DNA of 64,000 nucleotides. Origin: Nitrospirota bacterium (lineage in GTDB: Bacteria; JACPQY01). Within the stretch, counting starts at the first letter, position 1, and each line of letters begins with the position of its first letter. Below, in pieces: positions 23,572-49,813 of the stretch. A model generated the notes under the pieces. It made no database searches, had not been told where the DNA came from, and saw nothing but the letters and a program-made list of their open reading frames with translations. Where the stretch lies: NCBI GenBank assembly GCA_016190245.1, contig JACPQY010000083.1, positions 1 to 64,000 of the forward strand, given 5' to 3'. The position numbers and the translations under genes were made by a program.

Positions 23572-24807
23572 GTGAAAGTCCTTTATCTCGATTGTTTCTC
23601 CGGCCTGAGCGGCGACATGTTCCTCTCGGGCTTGGTGGATCTCGGCCTTTCCCCTGCCGTGTTGGAGGCTGGGTTGCGCAAACTCAAGCTGGGGCCCTTC
23701 CGGATGCGCTTCCCCCATGTTCACCAGAAAGCCATCCGCGCACGCCGCCTCAACCTCCGGCTCCCACACTCCACTTCAACGCACCACGGTGCAGGCGACC
23801 ATCTCGGGCACACCCACCGCTCGCACCGATCCATCGTAGCCCTGATCCGTCGCAGCGGATTGGCGAAAGGCGTCCAGGAGAAGGCCCTCGCGGTCTTCCG
23901 CGTGCTGGCGGAAGCCGAGGGGAAAGTACACGGACTGGAGCCGCACCGTGTTGAGTTCCACGAAGTGGGAGCGATCGATTCCCTGATTGACATCGTCGGG
24001 GCGGCGATCGGGCTGGAAGAACTCGGGATCGAGAAGGTCTATGCCTCACCCCTCCCGCTCGGCTCGGGGCTGGTGGAAACCCGCCACGGCACATACCCGG
24101 TCCCGGCCCCTGCAACGCTCGAGTTGATGCGAGGCCTGCCCACGCGGAACCACCCCGAGCCGGGAGAGTGGACGACGCCGACGGGCGCCGCGCTCGTTCG
24201 CGCGCTTGCCGAGGTGACCCCCGCTTTTCCCACCTTCCGTATCGAGCGGATCGGATACGGTTCGGGAACGCGGCCGGGACGCGCGCTTCCCAATGTGGTC
24301 CGAATGGTCTTGGGCACCGAACCGGCTCGCCCGGGCGCCACCGACCTCGAACGCGACGAGGTCTGGGTGCTCGAGACGAATCTGGACGATCTCAGCCCGG
24401 AACTGGTCCCCGCCGTCACGGACCGCCTCTTCCAGGAGGGCGCCCTGGACGTGCAGATCTTCTCCACCCACATGAAGCACGGGCGCCCCGGCTTCATGAT
24501 CCAAATCCTGGCCCACGCCGGGGCGCGGGACGCCCTTGCGCAACTCCTGTTGGAGGAAACGCCCACGCTGGGCGTGCGATTCCACCGCGCGGAACGGATC
24601 AAGTTGAAAAGGCGGCACGTGCGCGTCACCACCCGCTTCGGTGAGATCCGTGCCAAGGTTTCGGCGCGAAACGGGGAGATCCTGACGGTGAAGGCCGAAG
24701 TCGAGGACCTCGCGCGGGCGGCCTCCAGTGCCGGTCTCCCGCTGCGGCGGGTGAGGGACGAGGTGGACCGGCTACTCGCGGCGCGCTTCAGTCCCAGGCG
24801 CCCGTGA
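23572..24807 (+). CDS. larC: LarC-like nickel insertion protein
   Basis: 411 residues from a GTG, in one frame (lactobacillar larC is split and joined by frameshifting; this one is not). Signature segments: YLDCFSGLSGDMFLSGLVDLG, the His-rich loop (STSTHHGAGDHLGHTHRSH), HRVEFHEVGAIDSLIDIVGAA, YASPLPLGSG, TPTGAALVRAL and ETNLDDLSPE. The family is a CTP-dependent cyclometallase that installs nickel in the pincer cofactor of lactate racemase and relatives. No larA, larB or larE lies in the window. It overlaps the sensor kinase start by 4 nt. Confidence 0.9.
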   Translation: MKVLYLDCFSGLSGDMFLSGLVDLGLSPAVLEAGLRKLKLGPFRMRFPHVHQKAIRARRLNLRLPHSTSTHHGAGDHLGHTHRSHRSIVALIRRSGLAKGVQEKALAVFRVLAEAEGKVHGLEPHRVEFHEVGAIDSLIDIVGAAIGLEELGIEKVYASPLPLGSGLVETRHGTYPVPAPATLELMRGLPTRNHPEPGEWTTPTGAALVRALAEVTPAFPTFRIERIGYGSGTRPGRALPNVVRMVLGTEPARPGATDLERDEVWVLETNLDDLSPELVPAVTDRLFQEGALDVQIFSTHMKHGRPGFMIQILAHAGARDALAQLLLEETPTLGVRFHRAERIKLKRRHVRVTTRFGEIRAKVSARNGEILTVKAEVEDLARAASSAGLPLRRVRDEVDRLLAARFSPRRP

Positions 24808-27734
24808 GAGCTTCCCCACTTCCCCTCGGCGCGGACCAAGCCATCGCCGCCCGGGTCGCCGTGGCCGTGCGACTCGGCGTGGCCACCGGTATGCTCGGCC
24901 TCTTCTTCCTCGCCCAGGCCGTGCGGATCTCCGGCCTCCCCACGTGGGCCTCCTTCTTCCCCTACTACTACTGCGCCTACGCGCTTGCCCAGCTCTACCC
25001 ACTCAGGTGCTCCCGGCGCGGGCGCCGCCCCCACTCGCTCTTCCAGGCCTTCAACCACACCGTAGACTCGGTCGCCCTGACGCTGCTCGTGTTCTACACG
25101 GGGGGCCTGTACAGCCCGTTCCTGTTCGTCTACATCCTCGGCTACCTCGCCGCGTCCATCCTCGAGCGCGCACGAAGCGCACTGCTCATCGGCCTCGTCC
25201 AAGGCCTTCTCTTCACGCTGATGGGGATCGGTCAGACGTTGGGCTGGTTACCCATCCACGCCCTCCCCAGGGTGGACCCGGAGGCCACGAACGCGCGCAC
25301 GGCCTTTGCCTTTCTGATGGTGTTCTTCCTGGGCGCTGCGAACCTTGTGGTCGTCTATTTGTTCCGCCGGATAAGACTCTCCGAGGCACATAGCACGAGG
25401 CAGTACCAGAAGCTGAACACCCTCTACGCGCTGACCCGCACCCTCCTCGGGGAGCAATCCCTGGCCCAGAAGACGGAACGCATCTGCGAGACGGTGGCCT
25501 CCGGGCTGGGTTTCCAGTTCGGGTGCATCTTTCTCTACAACGAAGAACGCGACACGCTCGACTTCTGCTCCTGCTCGCCCCCTGCCTACAAGGACTGGAT
25601 GGAGGGTGTGCTCGGCATGTCCCTCCCCCGCATGCGCGTGAAGCTGGACCGCACCGACCACCTCCTCGTTACGGCCGTTCAGAACAGGACCTTCTACGCG
25701 ACGCGCGACATGCGCGAGCTCCAGGCGGTGGTCGAGCCCCCGGTGCCCGAGTCCGCCTATGAGGCGCTCCTCAGCGGCCTGGGACGCGCCCAACTCTATG
25801 CGGTTCCTCTCGCCGAAGGCGAGCGTTTGATCGGCGTTCTCGGTTGCATCGGCTCGGATGCGCCCCTGGCGCCCGAGGACCGCGACACGCTGATCTCCTG
25901 CGCCGACGCCGCGGCCCTGGCCATCGGCAACGCCCAGACGATGCACAACCTGCGAACCAGTCATCGGGAACTGGAGGAAAGTCTGGAAGACCTGTGGGTC
26001 ACCACGGACAAGCTCAAGGCGTCCCACGAGCGGATCCATGCCCAGTCCCGCGATCTGGTACGCTCCCAGCATGAGGTGGAGGAATCCGAGCGGGAGTTGG
26101 AGGGGGTGTACCGTTCCCTCGAACTGAAGCACCGGCATTTCCAGTCCGCCGTGGATATCGCGCAGAGCCTCCACGCCCTCACGGACCCCGACCATCTCGC
26201 AGCCGAGTTCGCCACCCTCCTCAGCCGCGTCTTCCCCGGTTGGAAATCCGCCGTGTTCCTGAATCGGAATCACCGATTCGTCCCCGCGGGTGCAGCCGGG
26301 TTCGACGGCCACGCGCTTCCTGAGATCCTTGAATCCGAAGTCCACGAAGCATTGGGGTCCGCACCGACCGGAGAGGTGCTCGAAATCCACGCCGACCAAT
26401 GGAACGGCCGACTCCCCGTGACTCCGGGCACGGATTCCGGGTGCGCGATGCCGATCCGGATCGCCTCCGAATGGATGGGTCTCTTTTATTTCGAGGGCGG
26501 GCAGAAGGCCGAGTGCGGTGAGGACGAAAGGTCGCTCCTCCTCCTTCTGGCCCACCAATTCGGCCTCGCCCTCAAGAACGCCCTTCACCTCGGGCAGGCG
26601 CTCTTCTACAAGAACTACCTCGAGAACCTCCTAGAGAACGCGCGAGCCGTCGTCCTCGTTCTGAACCACCAGGGACGCGTCCAACTCTTCAACCGCTATG
26701 CTGAAGAACAGACCGGCTACCGCCGAGACGAGGTGGTCGGCAAGCACGCCGCGCGGCTGTTCGTCGCAGAGGATCGGCGTGAGGACTTCATGCAGAGGTT
26801 CACGGATCTGGTCCAGGCCAAGTCCCTGGGCACCCTGCAGGGGGAATTCCGGACCAAGAGGGGCCGGACGCGCAAGACCGTCATCACCATCATCCCCGTG
26901 CTCGACGCGCAGGGCGAGGTGCAGCAGACCATCCTCATGGGGGAAGACCTTACGCGCATCCGGGAGCTCGAGCAGCAGGTGATCGAGGCGGGGCGCCTCG
27001 CCGCCCTGGGCCAGCTCGCCGCCGCGGTGGCCCACGATCTGAGCAATCCCATCACGGTCATGAGTTCCCAACTGGAGCTGTTGAAAGACGACGTGGCGGC
27101 ACACCTCCCCAAGGCCTCGGGCCGGATCCAGAAGGCTCAGGCTGCCTCAGAACACGTCCGGCTCCTCATCGACAATCTCATGAGCTACGCGAAGCCCGGC
27201 CTCGAACGCCGCCTCCGCCTCAGTCTCAACGAAGTTGTCCGCGAGGCGCTCGCCTTGTCCGACTACGAGATTCGCCGTGGCGGGGTCAAGATCAAGCCGG
27301 AGCTGGATGAGAGCCTCCCCAGAGTCTCCGGTGTCAAGGGCGAGCTCCAGCAGGTCGTTCTGAATCTGCTCGTGAACGCCAACCGCGCCATCCGCGAGTT
27401 CGCCTCGCAGGCCAGGAAAAACGAACATCACGGGGAGATCGGCGTGAGGACCCGGCGCATGGATGAGGCTCACGTCTGCCTGAGCGTGGAGGACAACGGG
27501 ATCGGCATCAAGGCCGACCTTCTCGAGAGGATTTTCGAGCCGTTCTACACGACGTGGTCCACCGGGGAGGGCAGTGGCCTGGGGCTCGCCGCGGTCCGCC
27601 GGATCGTGGAGCGCCACTCGGGCCGTGTCGAGGTCGAGAGCACCCATCTCAAGGGAAGCCGGTTCGACGTCGTTCTCCCGATCGAAGGCGCCCCGTCGCC
27701 CACCCCTGTTGACAAGCCGGCCGGGGCGGGGTGA
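24804..27734 (+). CDS. Membrane sensor histidine kinase (GAF-GAF-PAS-HisKA-HATPase)
   Basis: 976 residues from a GTG. The N-terminal ~200 residues hold about six membrane segments. A GAF domain follows (about 225-395), then a coiled coil (HRELEESLEDLWVTTDKLKA and on), a second GAF (about 455-600), a PAS domain (about 610-725), HisKA with the H-box AVAHDLSNPI near residue 742, and HATPase_c with N-box LLVNANRAI, G1 VEDNGIGI and G2 GEGSGLGLAAVRRI. No response regulator is adjacent, so the partner is elsewhere. Translational coupling with larC hints at nickel- or metabolism-linked control, which is only an inference. Confidence 0.9.
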   Translation: MRASPLPLGADQAIAARVAVAVRLGVATGMLGLFFLAQAVRISGLPTWASFFPYYYCAYALAQLYPLRCSRRGRRPHSLFQAFNHTVDSVALTLLVFYTGGLYSPFLFVYILGYLAASILERARSALLIGLVQGLLFTLMGIGQTLGWLPIHALPRVDPEATNARTAFAFLMVFFLGAANLVVVYLFRRIRLSEAHSTRQYQKLNTLYALTRTLLGEQSLAQKTERICETVASGLGFQFGCIFLYNEERDTLDFCSCSPPAYKDWMEGVLGMSLPRMRVKLDRTDHLLVTAVQNRTFYATRDMRELQAVVEPPVPESAYEALLSGLGRAQLYAVPLAEGERLIGVLGCIGSDAPLAPEDRDTLISCADAAALAIGNAQTMHNLRTSHRELEESLEDLWVTTDKLKASHERIHAQSRDLVRSQHEVEESERELEGVYRSLELKHRHFQSAVDIAQSLHALTDPDHLAAEFATLLSRVFPGWKSAVFLNRNHRFVPAGAAGFDGHALPEILESEVHEALGSAPTGEVLEIHADQWNGRLPVTPGTDSGCAMPIRIASEWMGLFYFEGGQKAECGEDERSLLLLLAHQFGLALKNALHLGQALFYKNYLENLLENARAVVLVLNHQGRVQLFNRYAEEQTGYRRDEVVGKHAARLFVAEDRREDFMQRFTDLVQAKSLGTLQGEFRTKRGRTRKTVITIIPVLDAQGEVQQTILMGEDLTRIRELEQQVIEAGRLAALGQLAAAVAHDLSNPITVMSSQLELLKDDVAAHLPKASGRIQKAQAASEHVRLLIDNLMSYAKPGLERRLRLSLNEVVREALALSDYEIRRGGVKIKPELDESLPRVSGVKGELQQVVLNLLVNANRAIREFASQARKNEHHGEIGVRTRRMDEAHVCLSVEDNGIGIKADLLERIFEPFYTTWSTGEGSGLGLAAVRRIVERHSGRVEVESTHLKGSRFDVVLPIEGAPSPTPVDKPAGAG

Positions 27735-39635: not shown

Positions 39636-39654
39636 AGACCCGCCGGGAGGGCGC

Positions 39655-39800
39655 TTGGTGTCAGGTCTTGCATTCATTCATCGGTGAGAGCGGTAGGATG
39701 TGCTCAGGGCGAGGCCGTCGCGTGCTTATTGTTCGACCGTGAGCCGACGGCTACGGGAGTTCGAGAAGGCGAACTGAATGAATGCAAGACCTGACACCAA
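39655..39800. mobile_element. 146-bp deletion derivative of RAYT element with perfect TIRs
   Basis: Perfect 25-bp terminal inverted repeats (39655-39679 and 39776-39800), each identical to the end at 449-473. Between them, on the plus strand, 39730-39777 encodes the last residues of a RAYT transposase (STVSRRLREFEKAN and stop), almost the same as the end of the relic at 472-861. It is therefore a non-autonomous remnant. It abuts a truncated PIN gene on its right side. Confidence 0.72.
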
Positions 39801-39989
39801 CAGCTCGCGCTTGTGGCGCCCCTCGACTTGTCCCTGTGCTCCTATCTTGAGGGGCCCTTTGAGATGCATGACGCGCTGATCGTGGCCACTGCCAAGAGAG
39901 TATCCTACGAAATAGGCCGCCCCGTTGCCGTGGTCACGCGCGACCGTGAGATCACAGAGTCCGGCGCGGTCGATGTCCTGTGGGCGTGA
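39801..39989 (+). pseudogene. PIN-domain toxin C-terminal relic
   Basis: The frame following the element encodes LEGPFEMHDALIVATAKR, VAVVTRDREI and TESGAVDVLWA, the C-terminal third of a PIN toxin (Asp in MHDALIVA and TRDREI). The N-terminal part, with its first catalytic Asp, is absent, and the element replaces it. Confidence 0.65.
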
Positions 39990-40060
39990 CTGACTCGTTT
40001 CGACCTCCTCGGGCGACACGAGCACGGCCGAGGGCCTGCCGTTGCGCGTGATGATCGCGC
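39990..40060 (-). pseudogene. Phd-type antitoxin relic
   Basis: Minus-strand frame reads IITRNGRPSAVLVSPEEVET, nearly the same as a segment of the intact antitoxin at 49465-49719 (IITRNGRPSAVLVSPEEIET). The N-terminal and C-terminal parts are lost. Confidence 0.6.
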
Positions 40061-40120
40061 TCTGTCAGCCGCAAGCGGACGGGGCCCTGCGGGTGAACCG
40101 GTGTCGGAAAGATTGATGAT

Positions 40121-40312
40121 TCAGGCAGCGCGCAGAAGTCGGCGCTGAAGGGGTCTGACGACCTGCTTCAACTCCCGGGAGGCGTTCAGTATCTCGACTC
40201 CCGGAAGCCGACCCTTGGAGTCCGGTTCAAGCGAAATGCCTGGGGCCACCTCGACCGCCTCGTGCTCAACCCCGGAGCGAGCGAGGTAAAGAACGTCCTC
40301 GCGCTCGTCGCA
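40121..40312 (-). pseudogene. DUF2283-like small protein, 5' end broken
   Basis: The frame ending at 40121 encodes DEREDVLYLARSGVEHEAVE, VAPGISLEPDSKGRLPGVEI and LNASRELKQ, the full core of the DUF2283 family of ~60-70 residue proteins often paired with DUF4258-type partners. No start codon lies between this frame and an upstream stop at about 40334. An ATG at about 40320 is in another frame, so a frameshift has probably killed the gene. Confidence 0.55.
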
Positions 40313-40532
40313 GTGAACATTCCTTCTTCGATCCTATGCCCATCTTCCTGATGCCACTCTATTCTCCCTCTGACCGGTCCTCGACAGATGCCCTGATCCC
40401 AGCTTGATCCCTTCCCGGCTCCCCCTTGCCTTGCCTCGAATCGGCCCATGGGATCGGAGTGACCCACCGCACACCTGGGACACTGCCTGTCCAGGTAGCC
40501 TGGTAGGGTGGTGCACAGAAGGAGGTGATTCG

Positions 40533-40892
40533 ATGAAACGAGGGATCATGATGATCGCAGTGGCGGTGCTCGCGGCGGCGTGCGTCTCCTGGCCCCGCGG
40601 CAAGGTCTACAAGACCGCCCCGCAGCGCTGGGACTACGAGGAATTGGGGCCGGTCAAGGACACCGGATTCGGCTGGACGAGGGAACAGGCCGTCAACCGC
40701 GCCGCGCTCGACCTGTACCACAAGTCCGTGGACAGGGGCGGTGATGGTGTGGTCGCAACCGAACTCGGGGAGCCGAGGTGCTACTACTTCTGGTCCACAC
40801 TGCTCTCGGCTCTCATTTTCCCGCCCTGCTGGGTGGAGGCAAGAGGCGTGGCCGTTTCGTTCAAGAGCAAGGGAGGTGACCGTGAAGAATAG
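40533..40892 (+). CDS. Small lipoprotein, start of envelope operon
   Basis: 119 residues from the ATG at 40533 with a strong AAGGAGGTGA site. Lipobox VLAAAC after a short signal peptide. The mature part is unrecognised; it includes a hydrophobic Cys-containing stretch (CYYFWSTLLSALIFPPC). It overlaps the following TPR gene by 11 nt. First of a co-directional run reaching 48850. Confidence 0.7.
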   Translation: MKRGIMMIAVAVLAAACVSWPRGKVYKTAPQRWDYEELGPVKDTGFGWTREQAVNRAALDLYHKSVDRGGDGVVATELGEPRCYYFWSTLLSALIFPPCWVEARGVAVSFKSKGGDREE

Positions 40893-41646
40893 GGCGAACG
40901 CCAGCGCGGGAGAGAGGAAAAGCGTCGCCGATATGCGTGAATGCATCCAGAACGGAGAGATGCTGCGGCGCGTCGGCAAGGCCCAGTTGGCGATGCACAC
41001 CTTTGCAAGGGGAGCCCGGGAATTTCCGGACGCGCGCTGGCAATTCCTGTACTACATGGGTTCCTGCTGCCTGGATCTCGGCAAGTACGAAAAGGCGGCG
41101 AAGTTCTACTTGCAGGCATGGACGCTCAATCCTGGCTGCGCTGGTGTCTGGGCCGCCGTGGCCGAGTGTGCGATCCACTTCAACCAATTGGAGGAGGCCG
41201 TGGAGATGATCTCGCACGCGCTCCGGCTCGATGAGCGATGCGCCAACGCCTGGATTGCGTGGGGCGAGCTCCATGAGGCGCGGGAGGAGTTCGAGAAGGC
41301 GGCGAAATGCCACGAGACGGCTCTCAAAGTGGACCCCGACTGCACGCGGGCGCTGGCAAGGGCTGGTTTTGCCCTCCGAAGTCTTGGGCTCGCTACCGGC
41401 GATAGAGGCTGCTTCGAGCGAGCCGAGACAATGTTTCGGGCCTACCTGGAGCATTGGCCCGGGGATGAATCACAGCTTTTCAACCTGGGGCTCGTGTATG
41501 GGAACCTCGGGCGGTTCAAGGAGGCCGCCGAGACGTTCGCGAAGATTATCGAACTGAACCCGGAGGACCTTGAGGCGAAGAAGTACCAGGACCTGTCCCT
41601 CCAGGATCTTGCCCAAATTGAGGCGGGCCATGTTTCCAATGTTTAG
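40882..41646 (+). CDS. TPR-repeat protein
   Basis: 254 residues from the GTG at 40882, which has a good GGGAGGTGACC site inside the preceding gene. About six tetratricopeptide repeats (GKYEKAAKFYLQAWTLNP, NQLEEAVEMISHALRLD, EEFEKAAKCHETALKVDP, GRFKEAAETFAKIIELNP). No signal peptide, so it is cytosolic. A protein-interaction scaffold; the partner is unknown. Confidence 0.82.
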   Translation: MKNRANASAGERKSVADMRECIQNGEMLRRVGKAQLAMHTFARGAREFPDARWQFLYYMGSCCLDLGKYEKAAKFYLQAWTLNPGCAGVWAAVAECAIHFNQLEEAVEMISHALRLDERCANAWIAWGELHEAREEFEKAAKCHETALKVDPDCTRALARAGFALRSLGLATGDRGCFERAETMFRAYLEHWPGDESQLFNLGLVYGNLGRFKEAAETFAKIIELNPEDLEAKKYQDLSLQDLAQIEAGHVSNV

Positions 41647-41668
41647 GCGTGGTTGTACCGATGGTTCC

Positions 41669-42124
41669 ATGCGCATCTGTGCCTGGACCGCTGCGGTTTT
41701 CGCAGTGGCCGGTTGCAACAGTGCCTTTTGGGACGGGTACTACCGGACCGACGAATCGGCTTACTCCACTCCCCCTCCGCATACGGCGACATCGGCTGAA
41801 AAAGAGTACCGGGTGCATCGTGTGATGGACGGGGCGACGCTGGAGGTCTGGAACAAGGGGCGGATCGAGACCGTGCGGTTGGAGGGTGTCGTAACCGCGC
41901 CGACCGACACCACCTGGGGCAAGAGCGCAAGGGACGCGCTCCGGTATCTGGAGGGGAAGTCGGTGACCATCGACGCCTGCCCCAAGAAGGATCGGGAAGG
42001 GCGGACCGTGGGCGGGGTCTTCTACAAGGGGGAGAACATCGCTGAAAAACAGCTCAAGAAAGGGAGGGTGGGGCCGGATAGGTCCTCCCGACCGTGCTCA
42101 CTGAGCAACCAAGCTCTCAAATAG
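41669..42124 (+). CDS. Staphylococcal nuclease-like lipoprotein, degenerate active site
   Basis: 151 residues from the ATG at 41669, which begins a lipoprotein signal (TAAVFAVAGC). The mature domain has the SNase-fold pattern YRVHRVMDGATLEVW, VRLEGV, ARDALRYLEGKSVTI and DREGRTVGGVFYKGENIAEKQLKKG. The segment that should carry the catalytic Glu (after RLEGV) reads VTAPTDTTWG, so catalysis is doubtful. A structural or binding role is more likely. An alternative start at 41630 would lose the signal peptide. Confidence 0.65.
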   Translation: MRICAWTAAVFAVAGCNSAFWDGYYRTDESAYSTPPPHTATSAEKEYRVHRVMDGATLEVWNKGRIETVRLEGVVTAPTDTTWGKSARDALRYLEGKSVTIDACPKKDREGRTVGGVFYKGENIAEKQLKKGRVGPDRSSRPCSLSNQALK

Positions 42125-42142
42125 TGGAAAGGAGGATGTATC

Positions 42143-42421
42143 ATGAGTAGTTGGAAAGCAATCGTTCCGATTCTCTTCTCCCTGTTGACCGTAACCGGGG
42201 TTGATTTCGTGTCCTGTGGGGAGGATTCGGACAAATCGGAGTGTGAGAAAGCATGCAGCCGAATGTTTGACCTGTGCGGGGAGGCCGTCAAGAACGAGTA
42301 TGGAAATGTGCGGAATTGTGCGGCTGATTGTGAGGACGACAGCGACGGCGATACGGGCACACCTGAGGAATTGATCTGTATTCAGGCAGCGAACTCCTGC
42401 TCCGATGCTGCCAGGTGTTGA
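42143..42421 (+). CDS. Small secreted cysteine-rich protein
   Basis: 92 residues with signal peptide (AIVPILFSLLTVTGVDFVSC). The mature part has nine Cys in a CEKACSRMFDLC ... CAADCEDD ... CIQAANSCSDAARC pattern, suggesting disulphides in the periplasm or outside. No family recognised. Strong ribosome binding site GAAAGGAGG. Confidence 0.65.
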   Translation: MSSWKAIVPILFSLLTVTGVDFVSCGEDSDKSECEKACSRMFDLCGEAVKNEYGNVRNCAADCEDDSDGDTGTPEELICIQAANSCSDAARC

Positions 42422-42615
42422 GAGTGAATCTCGGAGGTGGCGTTGACCACTCGGCTGGTAGCCCGGGAGTGACCGCGTTCCACTTGACCACCGCGTGGAG
42501 GATCGTGATCTGGCCGATCAAACTCTTACTCTGGGCGACCGGCCTTTACCTGATCTGGCGCGGCATCACGGGCTGCGGCGATCGGACGGAAAAGGGGGGT
42601 GTCGTGTGGCCGTGA
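42415..42615 (+). CDS. Small single-pass membrane protein
   Basis: 66 residues from a GTG overlapping the preceding gene. One hydrophobic helix (IVIWPIKLLLWATGLYLIW). Unrecognised. Co-directional between the Cys-rich gene and the WYL regulator. It may be chance. Confidence 0.4.
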   Translation: MLRVNLGGGVDHSAGSPGVTAFHLTTAWRIVIWPIKLLLWATGLYLIWRGITGCGDRTEKGGVVWP

Positions 42616-42677
42616 CAAGCCGACATTCTGTATTGCAAAGATCGGAACACCGCCCTACGCTACGGCCCATAGCGAAC

Positions 42678-43649
42678 ATGCGGATGGCGAAACCTGCTCT
42701 GGAAAGATTCCTGTACATCGACCAGAAGCTGCGGTCCGGGGTGTACCCCTCCACCTCGGAACTCGGGCAGGAGCTCGGGAAATCCTACAAGACGATCCAG
42801 CGGGACATTGACTTCATGCGCGACCGGCTCTCCGCACCCATTGACTACGATGTTTCGCGCAAGGGCTGGTACTACACGGAGCGGGCCTACGCCTTCCCCT
42901 TTCCCAAGTTGACGGAATCCGATGCGAGGACGATCCAGGCCGCGGCGGCGGTCCTGGATGGGCTGGGACCGCTTCCCGGCCTCGAGGGCTTCATGCAATT
43001 GGCCCGGGGCCTCCGGGCGGCGGCGGAAGAACCTTCATCGGCGGTCTCTGTCGGATTCGGCCCTCAGAGGATACCGGCACCACGAGTCCTTCCCATGATC
43101 CAGAAAGCCATCGAGAGGCGGGAGACCTTACGGGTCCGGTACCGGAAGCGGCCGCAGGCGGTCCCGGAGGATAGGTTGATGGACCCCTTGCACCTTCGAT
43201 TCCAGGGAGGCGACTGGTTCCTGGCCGCAAGGGACCACCGCTCCGGTCAAGTAAGGGTCTTCGCCGTCCACCGGATGATGAGCGCCGAGACAACCGGAAA
43301 TGCCTTCACCCCTGCGCCGCAGTTCTCATCGAAAACATTTTTCGGTGACGGGATCGGGATCGAACGCGGGAAGAAAGGCCACAGGGTTGTGTTGAAACTG
43401 ACGGGCTTCGCGGCCCAGATCGCCCAGGAGACCAGCTTCCATCCGAGCGAAAAGAGAACTCTGTGCAAAGACGGTTCCGTCCGGCTCGAAATGACCGTCT
43501 CCGGCCTCACCGACGTCGCCATGTGGGCGATGGCCCGTGGCCCCGAGGTGGAAGTGTTGGAACCGAAGGGCTTGAGGCAGATGGTGGCAGATGAACTGAC
43601 GAGGGCGGCGACGCTATACCGGAGGAGGTCACGTGGCACACGCAATTGA
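42678..43649 (+). CDS. WYL-domain transcriptional regulator
   Basis: 323 residues from the ATG at 42678 (MRMAKPALERFLYIDQKLRS). N-terminal DeoR-type helix-turn-helix (TSELGQELGKSYKTIQRDID), then the WYL sensor domain (IERRETLRVRYRKR, DPLHLRFQGGDWFLAARDH) and a C-terminal WCX-like domain (MWAMARGPEVEVLEPKGLRQMV). WYL regulators often control anti-phage or DNA-repair loci through nucleic-acid or nucleotide ligands. It overlaps the nuclease gene at 43633 by 17 nt. Its last ~40 codons recur as a relic at 46099-46234. Confidence 0.87.
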   Translation: MRMAKPALERFLYIDQKLRSGVYPSTSELGQELGKSYKTIQRDIDFMRDRLSAPIDYDVSRKGWYYTERAYAFPFPKLTESDARTIQAAAAVLDGLGPLPGLEGFMQLARGLRAAAEEPSSAVSVGFGPQRIPAPRVLPMIQKAIERRETLRVRYRKRPQAVPEDRLMDPLHLRFQGGDWFLAARDHRSGQVRVFAVHRMMSAETTGNAFTPAPQFSSKTFFGDGIGIERGKKGHRVVLKLTGFAAQIAQETSFHPSEKRTLCKDGSVRLEMTVSGLTDVAMWAMARGPEVEVLEPKGLRQMVADELTRAATLYRRRSRGTRN

Positions 43650-44790
43650 AATTGAAATAGATCAAAAGGGAGAAGCCATATGCCAGTCTCTTCCGTACAA
43701 GGACGAGGCGGAACTTCAGAAACTCCTGGCAGACCACCCGTCCATAATCCCGGTCGGCCAGATTTGGCGGCATTCCAGTGCGCTCTGCTTGGTCGAGAGA
43801 GAACAGGAGACCGGGGCAGGTCCTGTGGATCTAACCTTTGTTGATGAAAACGGTCGGATTCTTGTCGTCGAGTGCAAACTCGCAAGCGATGGTCGAGCTC
43901 GGAGGGAGGTTGTCGCTCAAGGGTTGGAGTATGTCGCGCACCTAGTGCGGCAGGGACCTGCAGGGATCTTGGGAAAGCAAGAAACCGCCTCTCGCGGGCA
44001 GGAGAGTCTTCTAGCCAGGTTTTGGCAGCGCGGCCTGGACACCCATCAAAAGTGGGTCGAGAGATTCGACAGCCGTGAAGCCTGGACCAGGGTTTTCAAG
44101 AAGAACATGGAGATGTACTTGCGAGACCCCGAAAAACTTGTGGATCGCCAGGGTGTAGCACTCCTGCTGGCGGCAGATTCCGTTCCGGATTCCGCTCTGG
44201 TGCTGTCCGATTTTGTAAATATCCTCTGTCGGCGTCGGAAACGTCCTCTTGTTTACTGCATGGAAGTTCGCAAGTTTCTCATTGGAGACCGACAGGTATG
44301 CGTGGCAAACGTCCGCGCGGCGGCCCTCCTGAAGGTGGAACCCGTTGCTCAGGAACAGTTCAGTCTCGAAGACTGGCTCCTCGGCAACGTGGACGACGAA
44401 GATAGCCAGAAGTATGTTGAACTGCGGCGGAAGATCCATGAGGCCCTGGTTCAAATCGCATCCGAGAAGAGGCACTCAGTGGAAGTTGAAATGGGGACGA
44501 AAGTTCTGATGCTGAAGTGGAGAATTGGCCCGGAAACAAAGACGCTGGCTTGCTTCGATCAGGTGGGACTCGACATGGTGCTGGCCTCCTGGTCGCACAC
44601 GCTTGCAATACCTTCAGAAATCGAAGCGCTGCTGGCCGACCTTTCCGACAGTTGCGGCTTGAGGTTCGAGAGAGGTAAACACCGTTCGATCGCGCACTAC
44701 GAATCGTTCAGGGACCATACCAATGCCGTAGGAGCGCTGAGGGATGCGCTCGACCGCTTCATGACACGACTTGAGAACCGGCGGTCATGA
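43633..44790 (+). CDS. PD-(D/E)XK nuclease-like protein (type A, DUF91/NucS-like)
   Basis: 385 residues from a GTG behind GGAGG inside the WYL gene. N-terminal half: EAELQKLLADHPSIIP, then VDLTFVDENGRILVVECKL, an Asp...ECK pair typical of PD-(D/E)XK nucleases, then REVVAQGLEYVAHL with the helix that follows the active site. The C-terminal half is unrecognised. It is predicted to bind or cut DNA. It lies between the WYL gene and a broken copy of the TM0106-type nuclease, the same position as the unrelated nuclease at 46231. Confidence 0.72.
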   Translation: MAHAIEIEIDQKGEAICQSLPYKDEAELQKLLADHPSIIPVGQIWRHSSALCLVEREQETGAGPVDLTFVDENGRILVVECKLASDGRARREVVAQGLEYVAHLVRQGPAGILGKQETASRGQESLLARFWQRGLDTHQKWVERFDSREAWTRVFKKNMEMYLRDPEKLVDRQGVALLLAADSVPDSALVLSDFVNILCRRRKRPLVYCMEVRKFLIGDRQVCVANVRAAALLKVEPVAQEQFSLEDWLLGNVDDEDSQKYVELRRKIHEALVQIASEKRHSVEVEMGTKVLMLKWRIGPETKTLACFDQVGLDMVLASWSHTLAIPSEIEALLADLSDSCGLRFERGKHRSIAHYESFRDHTNAVGALRDALDRFMTRLENRRS

Positions 44791-44818
44791 TCACGCTTAC
44801 CAAGGAGAGAGACCCTTG

Positions 44819-44917
44819 ATGAAGAACCGTGTGTCCCCTGACGACCTAGTCCGCCGCGCGACAGGCGGGAAGAGTCTGGACAAAGACCGGATGCTCCGGC
44901 CGTCCATGACCTACCAT
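44819..44917 (+). pseudogene. 5' fragment of TM0106-type nuclease gene
   Basis: Encodes DLVRRATGGKSLDKDRMLRP then SMTYH, matching residues ~12-36 of the intact nuclease at 47052 (DLLRRATGEKRLDRTRMFRP then SMTYH). Similarity stops abruptly after TYH. The open frame runs on to 45022 with unrelated residues. A truncated duplicate. Confidence 0.7.
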
Positions 44918-44970
44918 GGAATACTGGTTCCAGCCGGCCAAAGGGTAATCTGTGAAGCGAAGGAGGGACC

Positions 44971-46056
44971 ATGGGATTCAGATTCTTTCAGAGCGTCGGT
45001 ATTGGCAAGCACCTCCGGGTGAACCTCGGCAAGAGTTTGCTCCCGTCTCTTACCGGGCACGCAAAAGGCATCAGTCTGAACGTAGGGAAATCGGGGTTAC
45101 GCGTCATAGGCACCATTCCGGGGATGGGTATTGGTTATTCCGTCACGACCAAAGGCCTTACTCGAACATTTAAGAAAGTAGGAAAGCAGCTCGCGCGTGA
45201 CTGGGCAGATCTGGGCAAGGGAGGGGTGAGCGCCGCAAAATGGCTTGTCGAAAAAGCCGCGCAGCAGAGCCAAGTCCCGGCAGCCACGACTCTTCAGACG
45301 CCCAAGGCAAGCGTGGTTGACCCTCAAACCTCGGTCTTCCAAACGGCGCTCGAACTGTTTTCCAAGAAAGAGTTCGGTCTTTCGTTGGGCAAGCTAAGTA
45401 CGTTACAGGATCATCCCGATGCGTTGTTCTTGGCGGGACTCATTCAGTACCATTCGGGGAAGTATGACGCAGCAAAGAAGAGCCTCGACAGGGCGCTTTC
45501 GGGTGCCGACCACGGCTCGCTGTTCTCGAAGGTCGGCGCGGGAATCGCGGTTGAAATACCGCTAACCCCCGAAATCGGCGCTGAAGTCGCGCCGACGACG
45601 GCGGGCCTGAAGCTCATGCTGGTGGAGGTACTACAGGCATCGGGCGAATTCGAAGGCGCTCTCGGTCTCCTGCGCGCCCTACAGCAAGAGCTACCCGAAA
45701 GCCCTGTCGTGAAATTGTCCCTCGCGGAACTTCTGGCCATAGGCAGTCAGCACAAGGAAGTCGTCAACGTCCTTGAAGGCGTCCAGAACAACGGCCCCGT
45801 CGAAACCGCCTGCTTGCTTTACCGGGGTCGCGCCCTGAAGGCCCTCCGCCTGAATGACGCCGCTTATCAAACCTTCGCTCCCGCCCTTTATCGGACGAAG
45901 GACAGGCCACCGAGCCTTCTGCGGGACATCCGCTACGAGAAGGCCGTCTGTGCCGAGGAGCTTGGGAAGAAGGCGGAGGCGAAGAAAGAGTTCGAGCGCA
46001 TCTACGCCGAGGACCCGCGCTTCAAGGACGTGAAGGCGCGGCTGGACCTTGCATGA
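44971..46056 (+). CDS. DUF4236 domain plus TPR-like protein
   Basis: 361 residues. N-terminal DUF4236 segment (MGFRFFQSVGIGKHLRVNLG, GISLNVGKSGLRVIGTIPG, GIGYSVTTKG), about 60 residues. Then a linker and TPR-like helical repeats (SVFQTALELFSKKEFGLSLG, YHSGKYDAAKKSLDRALSG, GEFEGALGLLRALQQELPES, GKKAEAKKEFERIYAEDP). Function unknown. It sits between the two partial copies of the WYL/nuclease locus, so it may be cargo inserted there. Confidence 0.75.
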   Translation: MGFRFFQSVGIGKHLRVNLGKSLLPSLTGHAKGISLNVGKSGLRVIGTIPGMGIGYSVTTKGLTRTFKKVGKQLARDWADLGKGGVSAAKWLVEKAAQQSQVPAATTLQTPKASVVDPQTSVFQTALELFSKKEFGLSLGKLSTLQDHPDALFLAGLIQYHSGKYDAAKKSLDRALSGADHGSLFSKVGAGIAVEIPLTPEIGAEVAPTTAGLKLMLVEVLQASGEFEGALGLLRALQQELPESPVVKLSLAELLAIGSQHKEVVNVLEGVQNNGPVETACLLYRGRALKALRLNDAAYQTFAPALYRTKDRPPSLLRDIRYEKAVCAEELGKKAEAKKEFERIYAEDPRFKDVKARLDLA

Positions 46057-46098
46057 GGCTGCGAAGAGGGTGTCCCAATCCATGCGTGGTGACAACGC

Positions 46099-46234
46099 CG
46101 GATGACGGCACGATGTGGGCGATGGCGCGGGGGCGGAGGTCGAAGTGCTCGCACCGTCGGCGTTGCGGGAAATGGTGCCTCGAGAACTGGGTCAAGCGGT
46201 GAAGCTCTACCGAAAAGGAGGCAAGAGGAAATGA
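46099..46234 (+). pseudogene. WYL regulator 3' fragment
   Basis: Encodes GTMWAMARG, then, after a 1-nt frameshift in a G run, EVEVLAPSALREMVPRELGQ and AVKLYRK. This matches the end of the WYL protein at 42678-43649 (VAMWAMARGPEVEVLEPKGL and so on). Its TGA overlaps the next gene by ATGA, as the intact WYL gene overlaps its own partner. Confidence 0.7.
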
Positions 46235-47055
46235 AACAGGATTCTGACAGTGGACTTGCGCATGTGGTCAATCCTCGGATCGAGGTCTCTTGGTTCGAGG
46301 TTGGCGCGAAAGACGTAATGAGTAGGGTTGAGCCGCCCACCGCGGTCAAGCCCGACGAAATCGTGAAGTTCACATCATCGGAGGGCGAACTCACGGAGGT
46401 CATCGCGAAGAACGGCAAGGCCTTGTTCAACATTGATCTCAAGCTGAGAAGCGCGGATCCGAAGGGAAGCGGAGGTGCCGACATCGTTTGGATCGGCCCT
46501 GACCATCGCAAGTGGCTTTGCGAGTTGAAGGCGGGATGGGTCACTGCGCCGGTTGTGGGGCAGGCCGTGGGCTACCTCTTCGAACACATGCCAAGGGACG
46601 GCAAGAAGCCGAGTCACTATCAGATCCTAGCCGGAGGATTCCGTGTGAATCACCAGGCGTGCGGGCTTGCGGATCTTCTCACCTCGTCGGGTCTCTCGAT
46701 CGTGATATTCGAGCTGGCTGAGAGAAAAAGGGAAAAAGACGGTGAGAGATTGCTCAGACTACGAGTGTTCCGTTTCGATGGGAAGGGAATAAGAGCGAAC
46801 TTCAAGCCGGGCATGGTCTTGTATGACGCCATCAATGTGAACTGGGCGGGTCACACAGGATACCTCGAGATCCAGAACATTGGCCCGAGGGGAGAGTGCG
46901 GCGTGCAGATGGTGAAGGAGGAGAAGGGGAGCGAGGGGAGCCCCGGCGCCTTCAAGCCTGCACATGAGATCAAGATGGCGTCGACACTCGTGCACCTGGA
47001 GGTTGTTCCCCGGTCCAGCAAGACCGGAGGCAACGAACCGAAAGAGGGAGGGTGA
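46231..47055 (+). CDS. PD-(D/E)XK nuclease-like protein (type B)
   Basis: 274 residues from the ATG at 46231. Core: GSGGADIVWIGPDHRKWLCELKAG, an Asp followed by ELK at the spacing of PD-(D/E)XK nucleases, then VVGQAVGYLFEHM. The rest is unrecognised and has no clear similarity to the type A protein at 43633, although both occupy the slot between a WYL 3' end and a TM0106-type 5' end. It overlaps the next nuclease gene by 4 nt (GTGA). Confidence 0.65.
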   Translation: MKQDSDSGLAHVVNPRIEVSWFEVGAKDVMSRVEPPTAVKPDEIVKFTSSEGELTEVIAKNGKALFNIDLKLRSADPKGSGGADIVWIGPDHRKWLCELKAGWVTAPVVGQAVGYLFEHMPRDGKKPSHYQILAGGFRVNHQACGLADLLTSSGLSIVIFELAERKREKDGERLLRLRVFRFDGKGIRANFKPGMVLYDAINVNWAGHTGYLEIQNIGPRGECGVQMVKEEKGSEGSPGAFKPAHEIKMASTLVHLEVVPRSSKTGGNEPKEGG

Positions 47056-48551
47056 GGACTCCGTTGCTGAAACCCGATGCAGGCGACCTGCTACGCCGGG
47101 CGACTGGCGAGAAACGTCTCGATCGGACACGGATGTTCAGGCCGTCCATGACCTATCATCTCCTGAAGGACCCTTTCTGGATCTGGTGCGGGTACCATGC
47201 GCCGAGGGAGGAGGCCGTGGAGGAGGAGTCCCGCTACGACGAGATGAAGATGCAGCGCGGCTCGGAATATGAGGAGGCCTGGGTCAAGGAGCACTACCCC
47301 AACGCCGTCAAGGTGCAGCCCGAGTTCGGACTCGCCGCACTTCAAGATACGATCCGTCTCATGCTCGAAGGCACACCTGCCATCTACCAGCCACAGCTAT
47401 GGCACCTTCGCGGCGAAATGTATGGGAAGGGCGACCTTCTCGTTCGCGACGATTCGCGCCCCTCAGACCTGGGCGACTTCCACTATCGAGTGAAGGAAAT
47501 CAAGCATTCGAAGAAACTTCAGCCGTACCACACGCTTCAGGGGGCCTGCTACAACTGGATGCTGGGAGTCATCCAGGGGTACAAGCCCGAGACTGTGACC
47601 GTGGTCCTCAAGGAGACTGAAGAGGCGGTGTCCTATGAGCGCGCGCGTGAGGATCTCGAAAGCCACCTTTCGACGTGGTCCGATCTGCGTGACGGCAAGC
47701 TGCGCCCGGGCCCCACAGCGATGGACTGCACGGACTCGCCCTGGCGCGTGTACGCAAACAAGCTCCTGCTTGAGAAGCTTGACCTTACGCTTCTTCCCGG
47801 TGTGGGCCCGGCCGGTCGCGAGCACCTCCGGGCGGCTCTCGGCGTGACCGGCATCCGCGAGCTCTACGAGTTCTCGCTCGACCACCTGCGCCGCGCGCTC
47901 GGGGAGAAATCGGGGACCGACATCTACCGACACGCCCAATCCTACAAACTCGGCCGTCCCATCCCGAGGAACAACTACCCGTTTCACGTCCCGCGTGCCA
48001 AACGCAACATTCACTTCGATTTCGAGACGTCGGACGAGGTCCATCCCTCGGAGCCGCCGCATATCTACCTCATCGGCGCGTTCGACGAGGAACGCGAACG
48101 CTTCGCGTACTTCCTGGGCAAGGGGGCGGCGGAAGAGGAGAAGATCTTCCACGACTTCCTCGAATACGCGGGCGACCCCCGCGACGTCTGCCTCTATCAC
48201 TGGACCGACTTCGAGATCGGTGAGATCAAGGGCGTGGAGAGGCGCTATCCCCTTCTTGCAGGCCGGCTCGAGGCCCTCCGTGGATCCTGCGTGGACCTCA
48301 AGGAGGCCGTGCGGCAGCAGTTCTACCTAGCCGTGCCGACCTACTCCATCAAGTCCGTCGCGCCCTTTCTCGGATTCAACTGGCGGCAGAAGGACGTCGG
48401 TGCATTCGAGTCCATGGTCCTCTACTGGGACTACCTGGAGGGCGACAACGAGGGCATCAAGAAAGCCATCATGTACAACGAGGACGACGTGCTGGCCATG
48501 GTCCACATCCTGCGAGTGCTCTCAGGACTTCGCCCCGGCGCGCTGCGATGA
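47052..48551 (+). CDS. TM0106-type nuclease: RecB/Cas4-like plus DEDD exonuclease
   Basis: 499 residues from GTG. The N-terminal RecB-like domain (about 1-190) has GKGDLLVRD (Asp) and YRVKEIKHSKK (E-x-K), then YHTLQGACYNWML. A helix-hairpin-helix (TLLPGVGPAGREHLRAALGV) near 240 is followed by an RNase H-like 3'-5' exonuclease domain with HFDFETSDEV (D-E), a central CLYHWTDFE and YNEDDVLAMVHIL (DEDD set) at the end. The family is linked to DNA processing and is found near defence genes. No iron-sulphur Cys cluster of the Cas4 kind is evident. Last large gene of the locus. Confidence 0.82.
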   Translation: MRTPLLKPDAGDLLRRATGEKRLDRTRMFRPSMTYHLLKDPFWIWCGYHAPREEAVEEESRYDEMKMQRGSEYEEAWVKEHYPNAVKVQPEFGLAALQDTIRLMLEGTPAIYQPQLWHLRGEMYGKGDLLVRDDSRPSDLGDFHYRVKEIKHSKKLQPYHTLQGACYNWMLGVIQGYKPETVTVVLKETEEAVSYERAREDLESHLSTWSDLRDGKLRPGPTAMDCTDSPWRVYANKLLLEKLDLTLLPGVGPAGREHLRAALGVTGIRELYEFSLDHLRRALGEKSGTDIYRHAQSYKLGRPIPRNNYPFHVPRAKRNIHFDFETSDEVHPSEPPHIYLIGAFDEERERFAYFLGKGAAEEEKIFHDFLEYAGDPRDVCLYHWTDFEIGEIKGVERRYPLLAGRLEALRGSCVDLKEAVRQQFYLAVPTYSIKSVAPFLGFNWRQKDVGAFESMVLYWDYLEGDNEGIKKAIMYNEDDVLAMVHILRVLSGLRPGALR

Positions 48552-48850
48552 AGCGGGTCACAATCCTCGTGCCAGACACGATCCGTCTTACCCAGGGCGG
48601 CTTCCGTTCAAGTAGGACGTGTGATGTCCCTGTTTCAGGTGAGGCCATCACAAACGCTCTGGAGATAGTCGACTATCACGAGCAATATTCCTTCGCGCAG
48701 GGGTCCGTGTTCGTGGAGCAGATCGAGGAGTTGGATGTCGGGGCCGGCGATGAGAACATGAAGCTCTGGGAGCAGTTGGAGAAGAAGGCCTCAGACTCGC
48801 GTTTTGTTCCAAGTCGTCCCGATAATCCGTCCGCAACAAGGAAAACCTGA
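48548..48850 (+). CDS. Small hypothetical protein coupled to TM0106-type nuclease
   Basis: 100 residues, starting in the nuclease stop (ATGA overlap). N-terminal strand KRVTILVPDTIRL, then ALEIVDYHEQYSFAQGSVFV and an acidic/charged tail. Not recognised. The tight coupling suggests that it works with the nuclease, possibly as a small regulator or antitoxin-like partner. Confidence 0.55.
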   Translation: MKRVTILVPDTIRLTQGGFRSSRTCDVPVSGEAITNALEIVDYHEQYSFAQGSVFVEQIEELDVGAGDENMKLWEQLEKKASDSRFVPSRPDNPSATRKT

Positions 48851-49013
48851 GTCGGGCGGACCTCGGTGCGTCATTTTGGCGCTGGGGAAGAGGCGGGCCT
48901 CCATGCCCGCCTCAGAGTCAGGAAAGAAACGTCACCACCGGGCGCGGAACCGGCGGGCGGGTCGGACGGGGGTGGCGGCTGTTGATGCTGTCGGGCTGAC
49001 GCGCGCGGCCGGA

Positions 49014-49196
49014 TCAAACGCGATAGACCTCGCGCCGATGGCCGACGGTCAAGACCAGTACCGTGTTGAACAAGTCTTGGAGCAGATCGAAAAAGGGCAG
49101 GTTCTCGTCAACACGGTACATACGCCCCGCCCCTATTCGGGAATTCGAACGGAGAGCGGGGCTACCGCACGGCGACAGAGCCGGAAACTGCTCCAA
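49014..49196 (-). pseudogene. RelE-type toxin relic
   Basis: Minus-strand frame ends with MYRVDENLPFFDLLQDLFNT then VLVLTVGHRREVYRV. The last motif is the RelE/ParE signature, and MYRVDEN is a scrambled form of the usual YRVVYEVDDE, so the gene is a truncated, mutated relic. In the 495-bp gap 48851-49345 I see otherwise only a GAGGCGGGC/GCCCGCCTC hairpin near 48890-48915. Confidence 0.5.
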
Positions 49197-49345
49197 GAAC
49201 TCATCAACGCCGTACTAGGACCAGCAATTCGGATTTTCTGATCTTGTACTGGCCTTTGGCACATTTGTTTGAGCGTAACACCTTGACATGACACGGATCG
49301 TTCAATATCGCACCGATCCCATCCGGCAAGGGATCGAAACGAAAT

Positions 49346-49468
49346 TCAGGACGCGGGCATAAAGCCCGCGACTACAGCCTGTGTCTTCCGGACGCGCTCC
49401 TTGACCGGTCCATCGAGCCTGCGGATCCGCCGTGCCGCCTCCTCCGCGTACAGAACGCGGTAGGTCAC
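49346..49468 (-). pseudogene. RelE-type toxin truncated by dispersed repeat
   Basis: Starts with GTG overlapping the antitoxin stop by 4 nt. Encodes VTYRVLYAEEAARRIRRLDG, PVKERVRKT, the first ~30 residues of a RelE/ParE toxin, then runs into the widespread CGCGGGC-TTTAT-GCCCGCG palindrome (about 49351-49379) and stops. The remaining two thirds of the toxin are missing. Confidence 0.65.
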
Positions 49469-49719
49469 CTGAAAACGGCTTCGTGCTCCACCAAACGCCC
49501 CGCACGCTCCTCCTCCTCGGCCCTCAGAAGGGAAAGCATCAGTCTCTTGTCGGCGAGGATCTCGAGAGTTTCGATCTCCTCGGGGGACACGAGCACGGCG
49601 GACGGCCTGCCGTTGCGCGTAATGATCACCCGCCCTCGTTTCTTTCTGCCGAGATCGGCCACCAAGGAGGGAAGGTGCGCGCGCACGTACGATACCGGAA
49701 GGATTCTATCCATTCGCAT
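49465..49719 (-). CDS. Phd/YefM-family antitoxin
   Basis: 84 residues. LPVSYVRAHLPSLVADLGRK, then RGRVIITRNGRPSAVLVSPEEIETLE: a Phd/YefM DNA-binding domain, then a toxin-binding helix. SD GGAGG. Promoter-like TTGGCA-18-TACCAT lies upstream (about 49732-49761) with a TGTACA palindrome as a possible operator. Its toxin is truncated, so it is now an orphan. Confidence 0.82.
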   Translation of the reverse strand: MRMDRILPVSYVRAHLPSLVADLGRKKRGRVIITRNGRPSAVLVSPEEIETLEILADKRLMLSLLRAEEEERAGRLVEHEAVFR

Positions 49720-49813
49720 GAACCTCCGACAACATGGTACGGAACTATGTACATGTGTGCCAACCCGTTTCGTCCTTGAAAAAATGCCCGACCTGGCCCA
49801 CCATCTTCCCCTG

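Follow-up and report, generated by a model that had tools for sequence, protein, structure and literature searches.

Among the closest described relatives of the locus reported here are gene sets in which a WYL-domain regulator accompanies defence genes. BrxR and CapW regulate BREX and CBASS, respectively (PMC9122601, PMC9122588); the gene for CapW lies upstream of its defence operon, on the other strand (PMC9122588). Inverted repeats are bound by BrxR, and the same paper allows for homologues that lack obvious repeats (PMC9122601). WYL regulation in response to single-stranded DNA is described for PafBC (PMC11804915). Nucleases of the TM0106 family, whose genes are widespread, turning up in 40 of the 386 genomes sampled, were named in no paper found in the literature searched, the coverage of which was incomplete. 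Here, we analysed a locus that holds both kinds of gene, within a window of 64,000 nucleotides (the whole stretch of DNA that was analysed) from a Nitrospirota bacterium, contig JACPQY010000083.1. An earlier note on this DNA had proposed that the locus combines a constant WYL regulator and nuclease with a swappable middle gene (X), and had suggested a defence-system search; with PADLOC-DB 2.0, the locus was not called as the gene set of any known anti-phage system.

The locus comprises eight parts, all on the + strand and spanning 42678-48850, each of them noted earlier and confirmed here, and the whole lies inside a larger insertion, as listed here.

39636-49810, no strand assigned: lineage-specific insertion of 10.2 kb that separates the HAD phosphatase gene from trxB and contains the whole locus (empty syntenic site in sister genome G001)
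42678-43649, + strand: intact WYL-domain transcriptional regulator of unit 1, wHTH-WYL-WCX (Pfam WYL 61.9 bits, WCX 55.2 bits; PADLOC WYL model 113 bits; GC3 77.5%)
43633-44790, + strand: middle gene A, predicted PD-(D/E)XK nuclease of NucS_C / PDC-S11 kind (NucS_C 23.0 bits; PDC-S11 29.3 bits; GC3 61.7%)
44819 to about 44926, + strand: 5' remnant of the unit-1 TM0106-type nuclease (65% over 37 columns against the intact copy; shuffle test)
44971-46056, + strand: DUF4236-TPR protein gene (DUF4236 26.5 bits, cut-off 27; TPR_19 38.9 bits; GC3 69.1%)
About 46104 to 46234, + strand: 3' remnant of the unit-2 WYL gene, with one frameshift (matches to WYL residues 279-316 spread over two frames; alignment score 81, best shuffle 46)
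46231-47055, + strand: middle gene B, predicted PD-(D/E)XK protein of NucS_C / PDC-S18 kind (relative L132, 1.6e-10, matches NucS_C and PDC-S18; GC3 70.9%)
47052-48551, + strand: intact TM0106-type nuclease with a Cas4/Dna2-like domain, a helix-hairpin-helix and a DEDD-type 3'-5' exonuclease domain (TIGR03491 181.2 bits; RNase_H_2 91.4 bits; GC3 80.4%)
48548-48850, + strand: small gene of 100 aa coupled to the nuclease (ATGA overlap with the nuclease; GC3 66.3%)

Comparison with G001, the sole other genome of the same family compared, indicates that the surrounding region is a lineage-specific insertion, because the phosphatase and trxB genes lie 10.2 kb apart in the window and are separated by only 96 bp in the sister genome (contig C29, phosphatase ORF ending at 24753 and trxB starting at 24850). 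G001 keeps the order phenylalanyl-tRNA synthetase, gap, pgk, tpiA, HAD phosphatase, trxB, and prephenate dehydratase, with synteny on both sides (gap, pgk, and trxB were named from their own sequences); with two genomes compared, the difference may alternatively reflect loss from G001. Near both ends of the insertion lies a 60-bp direct repeat (39997-40056 and 49568-49627, 92% identical), of which the left copy, a piece of a Phd/YefM antitoxin gene, adjoins a sequence resembling the 3' end of a PIN-toxin gene. The right copy falls within a Phd antitoxin gene that is itself intact (49465-49716, minus strand) and that adjoins an apparently broken RelE/ParE-like toxin gene. A perfect, MITE-like 24-nt inverted repeat, GGTGTCAGGTCTTGCATTCATTCA, occurs at 39657-39680 and 39775-39798, and the same sequence was found at 11 places in this genome with at most two mismatches (reversed control, 0). 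Upstream of the WYL gene, the insertion also carries a gene with an SNase-like (thermonuclease) domain (41624-42124).

Within the locus, neighbouring genes are closely packed. The WYL gene and A overlap by 17 nt, the stop of the WYL 3' remnant overlaps the start of B (ATGA), and B and the intact nuclease overlap as well (GTGA), and these overlapping start and stop codons suggest an operon structure. The earlier note had described matching overlaps at the flanks of the middle genes, which holds except between A and the nuclease 5' remnant, where there is a 28-nt gap. The surviving genes, the DUF4236-TPR gene included, may by now be transcribed together as a composite unit. The small terminal gene had no Pfam, PADLOC, or NCBIfam match and no plasmid relatives.

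The history of the locus turns on its two truncated pieces, which had been read as fragments of a WYL and a nuclease gene and proved to be genuine homologues of the intact copies beside them. The nuclease piece has an ORF open over 44819-45022, of which only the first ~33 codons, to ~44917, are homologous to the intact copy (60 of 77 nt identical; tblastn 1.3e-11). The WYL piece shares 56 of 75 nt with the intact WYL gene, at protein level 59% over 29 aa in one frame and 8 of 10 aa in the next, and what had been taken for a simple 3' fragment is more exactly a frameshifted remnant that requires one frameshift. Chance similarity was rejected by shuffle tests, in which both pieces beat all 300 codon shuffles run for each (local alignment scores of 105 against a maximum of 49 for the nuclease piece and 81 against 46 for the WYL piece), and among the relatives compared the best match of each piece is the intact copy beside it.

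Because both pieces are genuine homologues of their neighbours, two WYL-X-TM0106 units, each with its own middle gene, appear to have stood at this locus. The DUF4236-TPR gene sits where the remainder of the first nuclease and the start of the second WYL gene would be; in the history we propose, nuclease 1 would have lost its 3' part and WYL 2 its 5' part, with the DUF4236-TPR gene gained in their place, so that a single regulator and a single nuclease would remain beside two X genes on one strand. The duplication, if it happened here, would be old, given that piece and copy are only 59-65% identical. For the same reason, and since no intermediate was found, no crossover could be mapped, so recombination at the conserved flanks, by which the locus had been supposed to diversify, is plausible without being localised. 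We regard it as somewhat better than an even bet that the locus derives from two adjacent, diverged WYL-X-TM0106 operons, now partly lost, in a lineage-specific island, with an exchangeable X and a role in WYL-controlled nuclease defence.

The middle genes themselves encode distinct proteins (pairwise BLASTP E = 0.09), but the earlier view that they are unrelated does not wholly hold, because both carry D-x13-E-x-K followed by Q-x3-Y. In A, residues E57, D66, E80, K82, Q96, and Y100 are invariant across an 8-sequence alignment, and in B, D84, E98, K100, Q111, and Y115 are invariant across three sequences. A scored just under the Pfam cut-off of 24 for NucS_C, and its PADLOC matches were weak (PDC-S11/S18), the PDC-S11 match covering residues 17-112 and failing at full length. 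B had no direct match to Pfam NucS_C or to any PADLOC model, and its relative L132 matched NucS_C at 21 bits and also PDC-S18. On these profile matches, A is close to the NucS_C type directly and B by way of L132, and both are predicted PD-(D/E)XK proteins with the pattern seen in NucS-like candidate defence proteins. A single-sequence structure model of B was unusable (pLDDT 33), and an alignment scan of viral contigs found no relatives of B. Base composition also sets the middle genes apart: GC3 is host-like in the WYL gene (77.5%), the intact nuclease (80.4%), and the two short remnants (75-76%), and is lower in A (61.7%), B (70.9%), the DUF4236 gene (69.1%), and the small gene (66.3%). Confidence ranges are disjoint for A and for B against the nuclease and overlap for B against WYL, a pattern that fits, without proving, a foreign origin of the middle genes between older flanks.

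The intact nuclease belongs to the TM0106 family of RecB-like proteins (TIGR03491, residues 77-486, cut-off 97.45 bits), and its predicted PD-(D/E)XK and DEDD catalytic residues are intact, with D128, K151, Q163, Y167, D323, E325, and D479 invariant across 29 sequences. Foldseek searches with its AlphaFold model (pLDDT 94.8) returned Cas4 and Dna2 for one part and family B polymerase 3'-5' exonuclease and TREX1 for the other, the split into halves being taken from Pfam and TIGR positions; against the PADLOC Cas4 model the protein scored 17 bits. The window WYL protein has a wHTH-WYL-WCX architecture, with WYL and WCX above cut-off and a weak HTH_11 match (16 bits). Its best solved-structure match is PafBC (53.7 bits), and it resembles the solved CapW only weakly in sequence (24 bits). 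Across the locus, PADLOC returned only WYL models, with partial matches to Cas3c and AbiEii, besides the weak matches on A and the Cas4 match on the nuclease.

We then looked for the WYL-X-TM0106 order elsewhere, and the strict order was found in no other genome searched. Single-protein scans of genome and viral contigs returned no relatives of the nuclease, and a scan with a three-sequence alignment yielded 49 genome loci, the closest at 54% identity, none of which had a WYL gene nearby, with many of these contigs short; four close relatives (L069-L072) lacked both a WYL gene and a defence-type neighbour. A sample of 40 TM0106 loci across other genomes included one with an adjacent WYL gene (G084) and one with a partial WYL gene ~6 kb away. 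The former (L041), co-directional with its nuclease, was not counted, as the two genes are ~600 nt apart with no gene recognised between them and the WYL protein is very divergent. Neighbourhoods of A and B relatives held neither WYL nor TM0106 genes.

The pairing of the two families, as distinct from the strict order, does recur on plasmids. Among the 60 best-listed plasmid TM0106-helicase genes, 27 had a divergent WYL neighbour, usually 80-130 nt away, and a Shinella locus (L012) brings the plasmid WYL/TM0106-helicase loci to 28, all of them in Alphaproteobacteria and all with the nuclease fused to a helicase; no published name for this pair was found in the literature searched. The possibility that the window WYL groups with these alphaproteobacterial WYLs was rejected, as they form a clade of their own (100/99 support), the placement of the window WYL in the tree being unsure owing to long branches. 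Since the alphaproteobacterial WYLs form one clade without it, the WYL-TM0106 link was probably made separately.

Partner genes around TM0106 differ from place to place. Downstream of the plasmid TM0106-helicase gene, the loci examined carry a McrBC-like ATPase and nuclease, an AAA ATPase, DUF4357 then DUF3883, an exonuclease-ATPase pair, a sacsin-type protein, DUF4258 then PD-(D/E)XK, or, at some loci, nothing obvious. On the Rhizobium etli 8C-3 plasmid (L162:4926-10790), the pair lies immediately before multiubiquitin, ThiF, and DUF6527 genes, an arrangement that may tie a ubiquitin-like system to a TM0106 nuclease. On plasmid p123 of Vibrio tubiashii, near brxL, a full-length PDC-S11 gene lies 7 nt before a TM0106-type gene; the tight series after brxL (L013:2061-12046) reads SMEK, unknown, PDC-S11, TM0106-helicase, and TrlF. 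In two MAGs (L068 and L074), Tiamat-like ATPase genes with NOV_C lie 16-20 nt before the nuclease, which in L068 is 54% identical to that of the window (ATPase families were scanned on the L068 copy). Both loci (L068:4264-11467 and L074:1785-10093) read SWIM zinc-finger gene, Tiamat-like 1900-aa ATPase with NOV_C, TM0106-type nuclease, possibly a three-gene variant, and the L074 nuclease is split over two frames. As the neighbours differ among the plasmids, Vibrio, and these MAGs, TM0106 genes appear to have exchanged partners in several lineages, not at the same position.

Taken together, the proposed chassis with a swappable middle stands as far as two units, different X genes, an X composition unlike that of the flanks, and linkage and partner exchange elsewhere are concerned; what did not emerge is the same gene order in a second genome, whether near the 49 and 40 nuclease loci or near A and B relatives. 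A broader reading, which we put forward tentatively and judge possible though short of even chances, is that WYL and the TM0106-type nuclease constitute a modular defence core, as yet undescribed, that was put together on more than one occasion (here co-directional and without a helicase, on alphaproteobacterial plasmids divergent and with one) and that accepts unrelated sensor or effector genes, such as NucS-like, sacsin/DUF3883, McrBC-like, and ubiquitin-like genes. Were TM0106-type nucleases repeatedly linked both to WYL regulators and to changing defence genes, a role for them as the DNA-degrading partner common to these genes could be put to the test, and plasmid defence modules beyond the PADLOC models used here would come into view.

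As for function, the operon on the 10-kb island is probably an anti-phage module, a reading that rests on the neighbours of its homologues. We infer regulation by the window WYL, joint action of X and the nuclease, and an anti-phage role. The WYL protein would keep the operon low and respond when a nucleic acid signals infection or DNA damage, either as BrxR and CapW act on BREX and CBASS or through single-stranded DNA as for PafBC; X would sense, recognise, or nick foreign DNA; and the nuclease, with its Cas4/Dna2-like and 3'-5' exonuclease domains, would degrade that DNA from its ends.

Two other accounts were weighed. The locus could be mere defence-island clutter, with WYL, NucS-like, and TM0106 genes, all of them frequent in such islands, gathered by repeated insertion and the duplication a one-off rearrangement without modular logic, and the lack of WYL genes near close TM0106 relatives, the solitary relatives of A and B, and the toxin-antitoxin pieces with a common 60-bp repeat that bracket the island all lean that way; we nonetheless hold it unlikely, since the two units share an order and homologous flanks around different X genes, overlapping start and stop codons suggest operons, and WYL-TM0106 adjacency recurs at 27-28 of 60 listed plasmid loci. 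The chief functional rival to defence, a DNA-repair or stress module in which WYL senses single-stranded DNA like PafBC or DriD, the nuclease processes damaged ends, and X genes are NucS-like mismatch or branch cutters, would accommodate the PafBC match at 53.7 bits, the NucS_C-type domains of A and (via L132) B, the Dna2 and TREX1 fold matches, one plasmid WYL-TM0106 pair that neighbours SOS and translesion genes, and the TM0106 relatives without a defence-type neighbour, but it sits poorly with a lineage-specific insertion and with defence-type neighbours at most plasmid loci examined, and we consider it improbable.

The locus resembles several described systems in part. As with BrxR and CapW (PMC9122601, PMC9122589, PMC9122588), the gene for a wHTH-WYL regulator adjoins genes for a nuclease or other defence functions; unlike CapW, this regulator is co-directional, first in its operon, and overlaps A rather than lying on the opposite strand, and unlike the BrxR case, no inverted repeat of at least 8 nt was found upstream of it (42400-42720). 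Shield shares a nuclease-type defence gene often accompanied by a BrxR-like WYL gene, and differs in that its effector is a membrane RmuC protein and not a TM0106-type nuclease (PMC10270631). The candidate single-gene defence proteins PDC-S11 and PDC-S18 (PADLOC) share the NucS_C-like PD-(D/E)XK domain, and a strong PDC-S11 precedes TM0106 in Vibrio, whereas A matches PDC-S11 only in part and B matches no model directly. The Tiamat-like ATPase (PADLOC TmtA, with NOV_C/DUF3883) stands directly 5' of close relatives of the nuclease and is absent from the window. Finally, the alphaproteobacterial plasmid pair shares a WYL-WCX regulator adjoining a TM0106-type nuclease with changing partners; there, the WYL gene is divergent and of another clade, the nuclease carries a fused helicase, and partners are found downstream, not in between as in the window.
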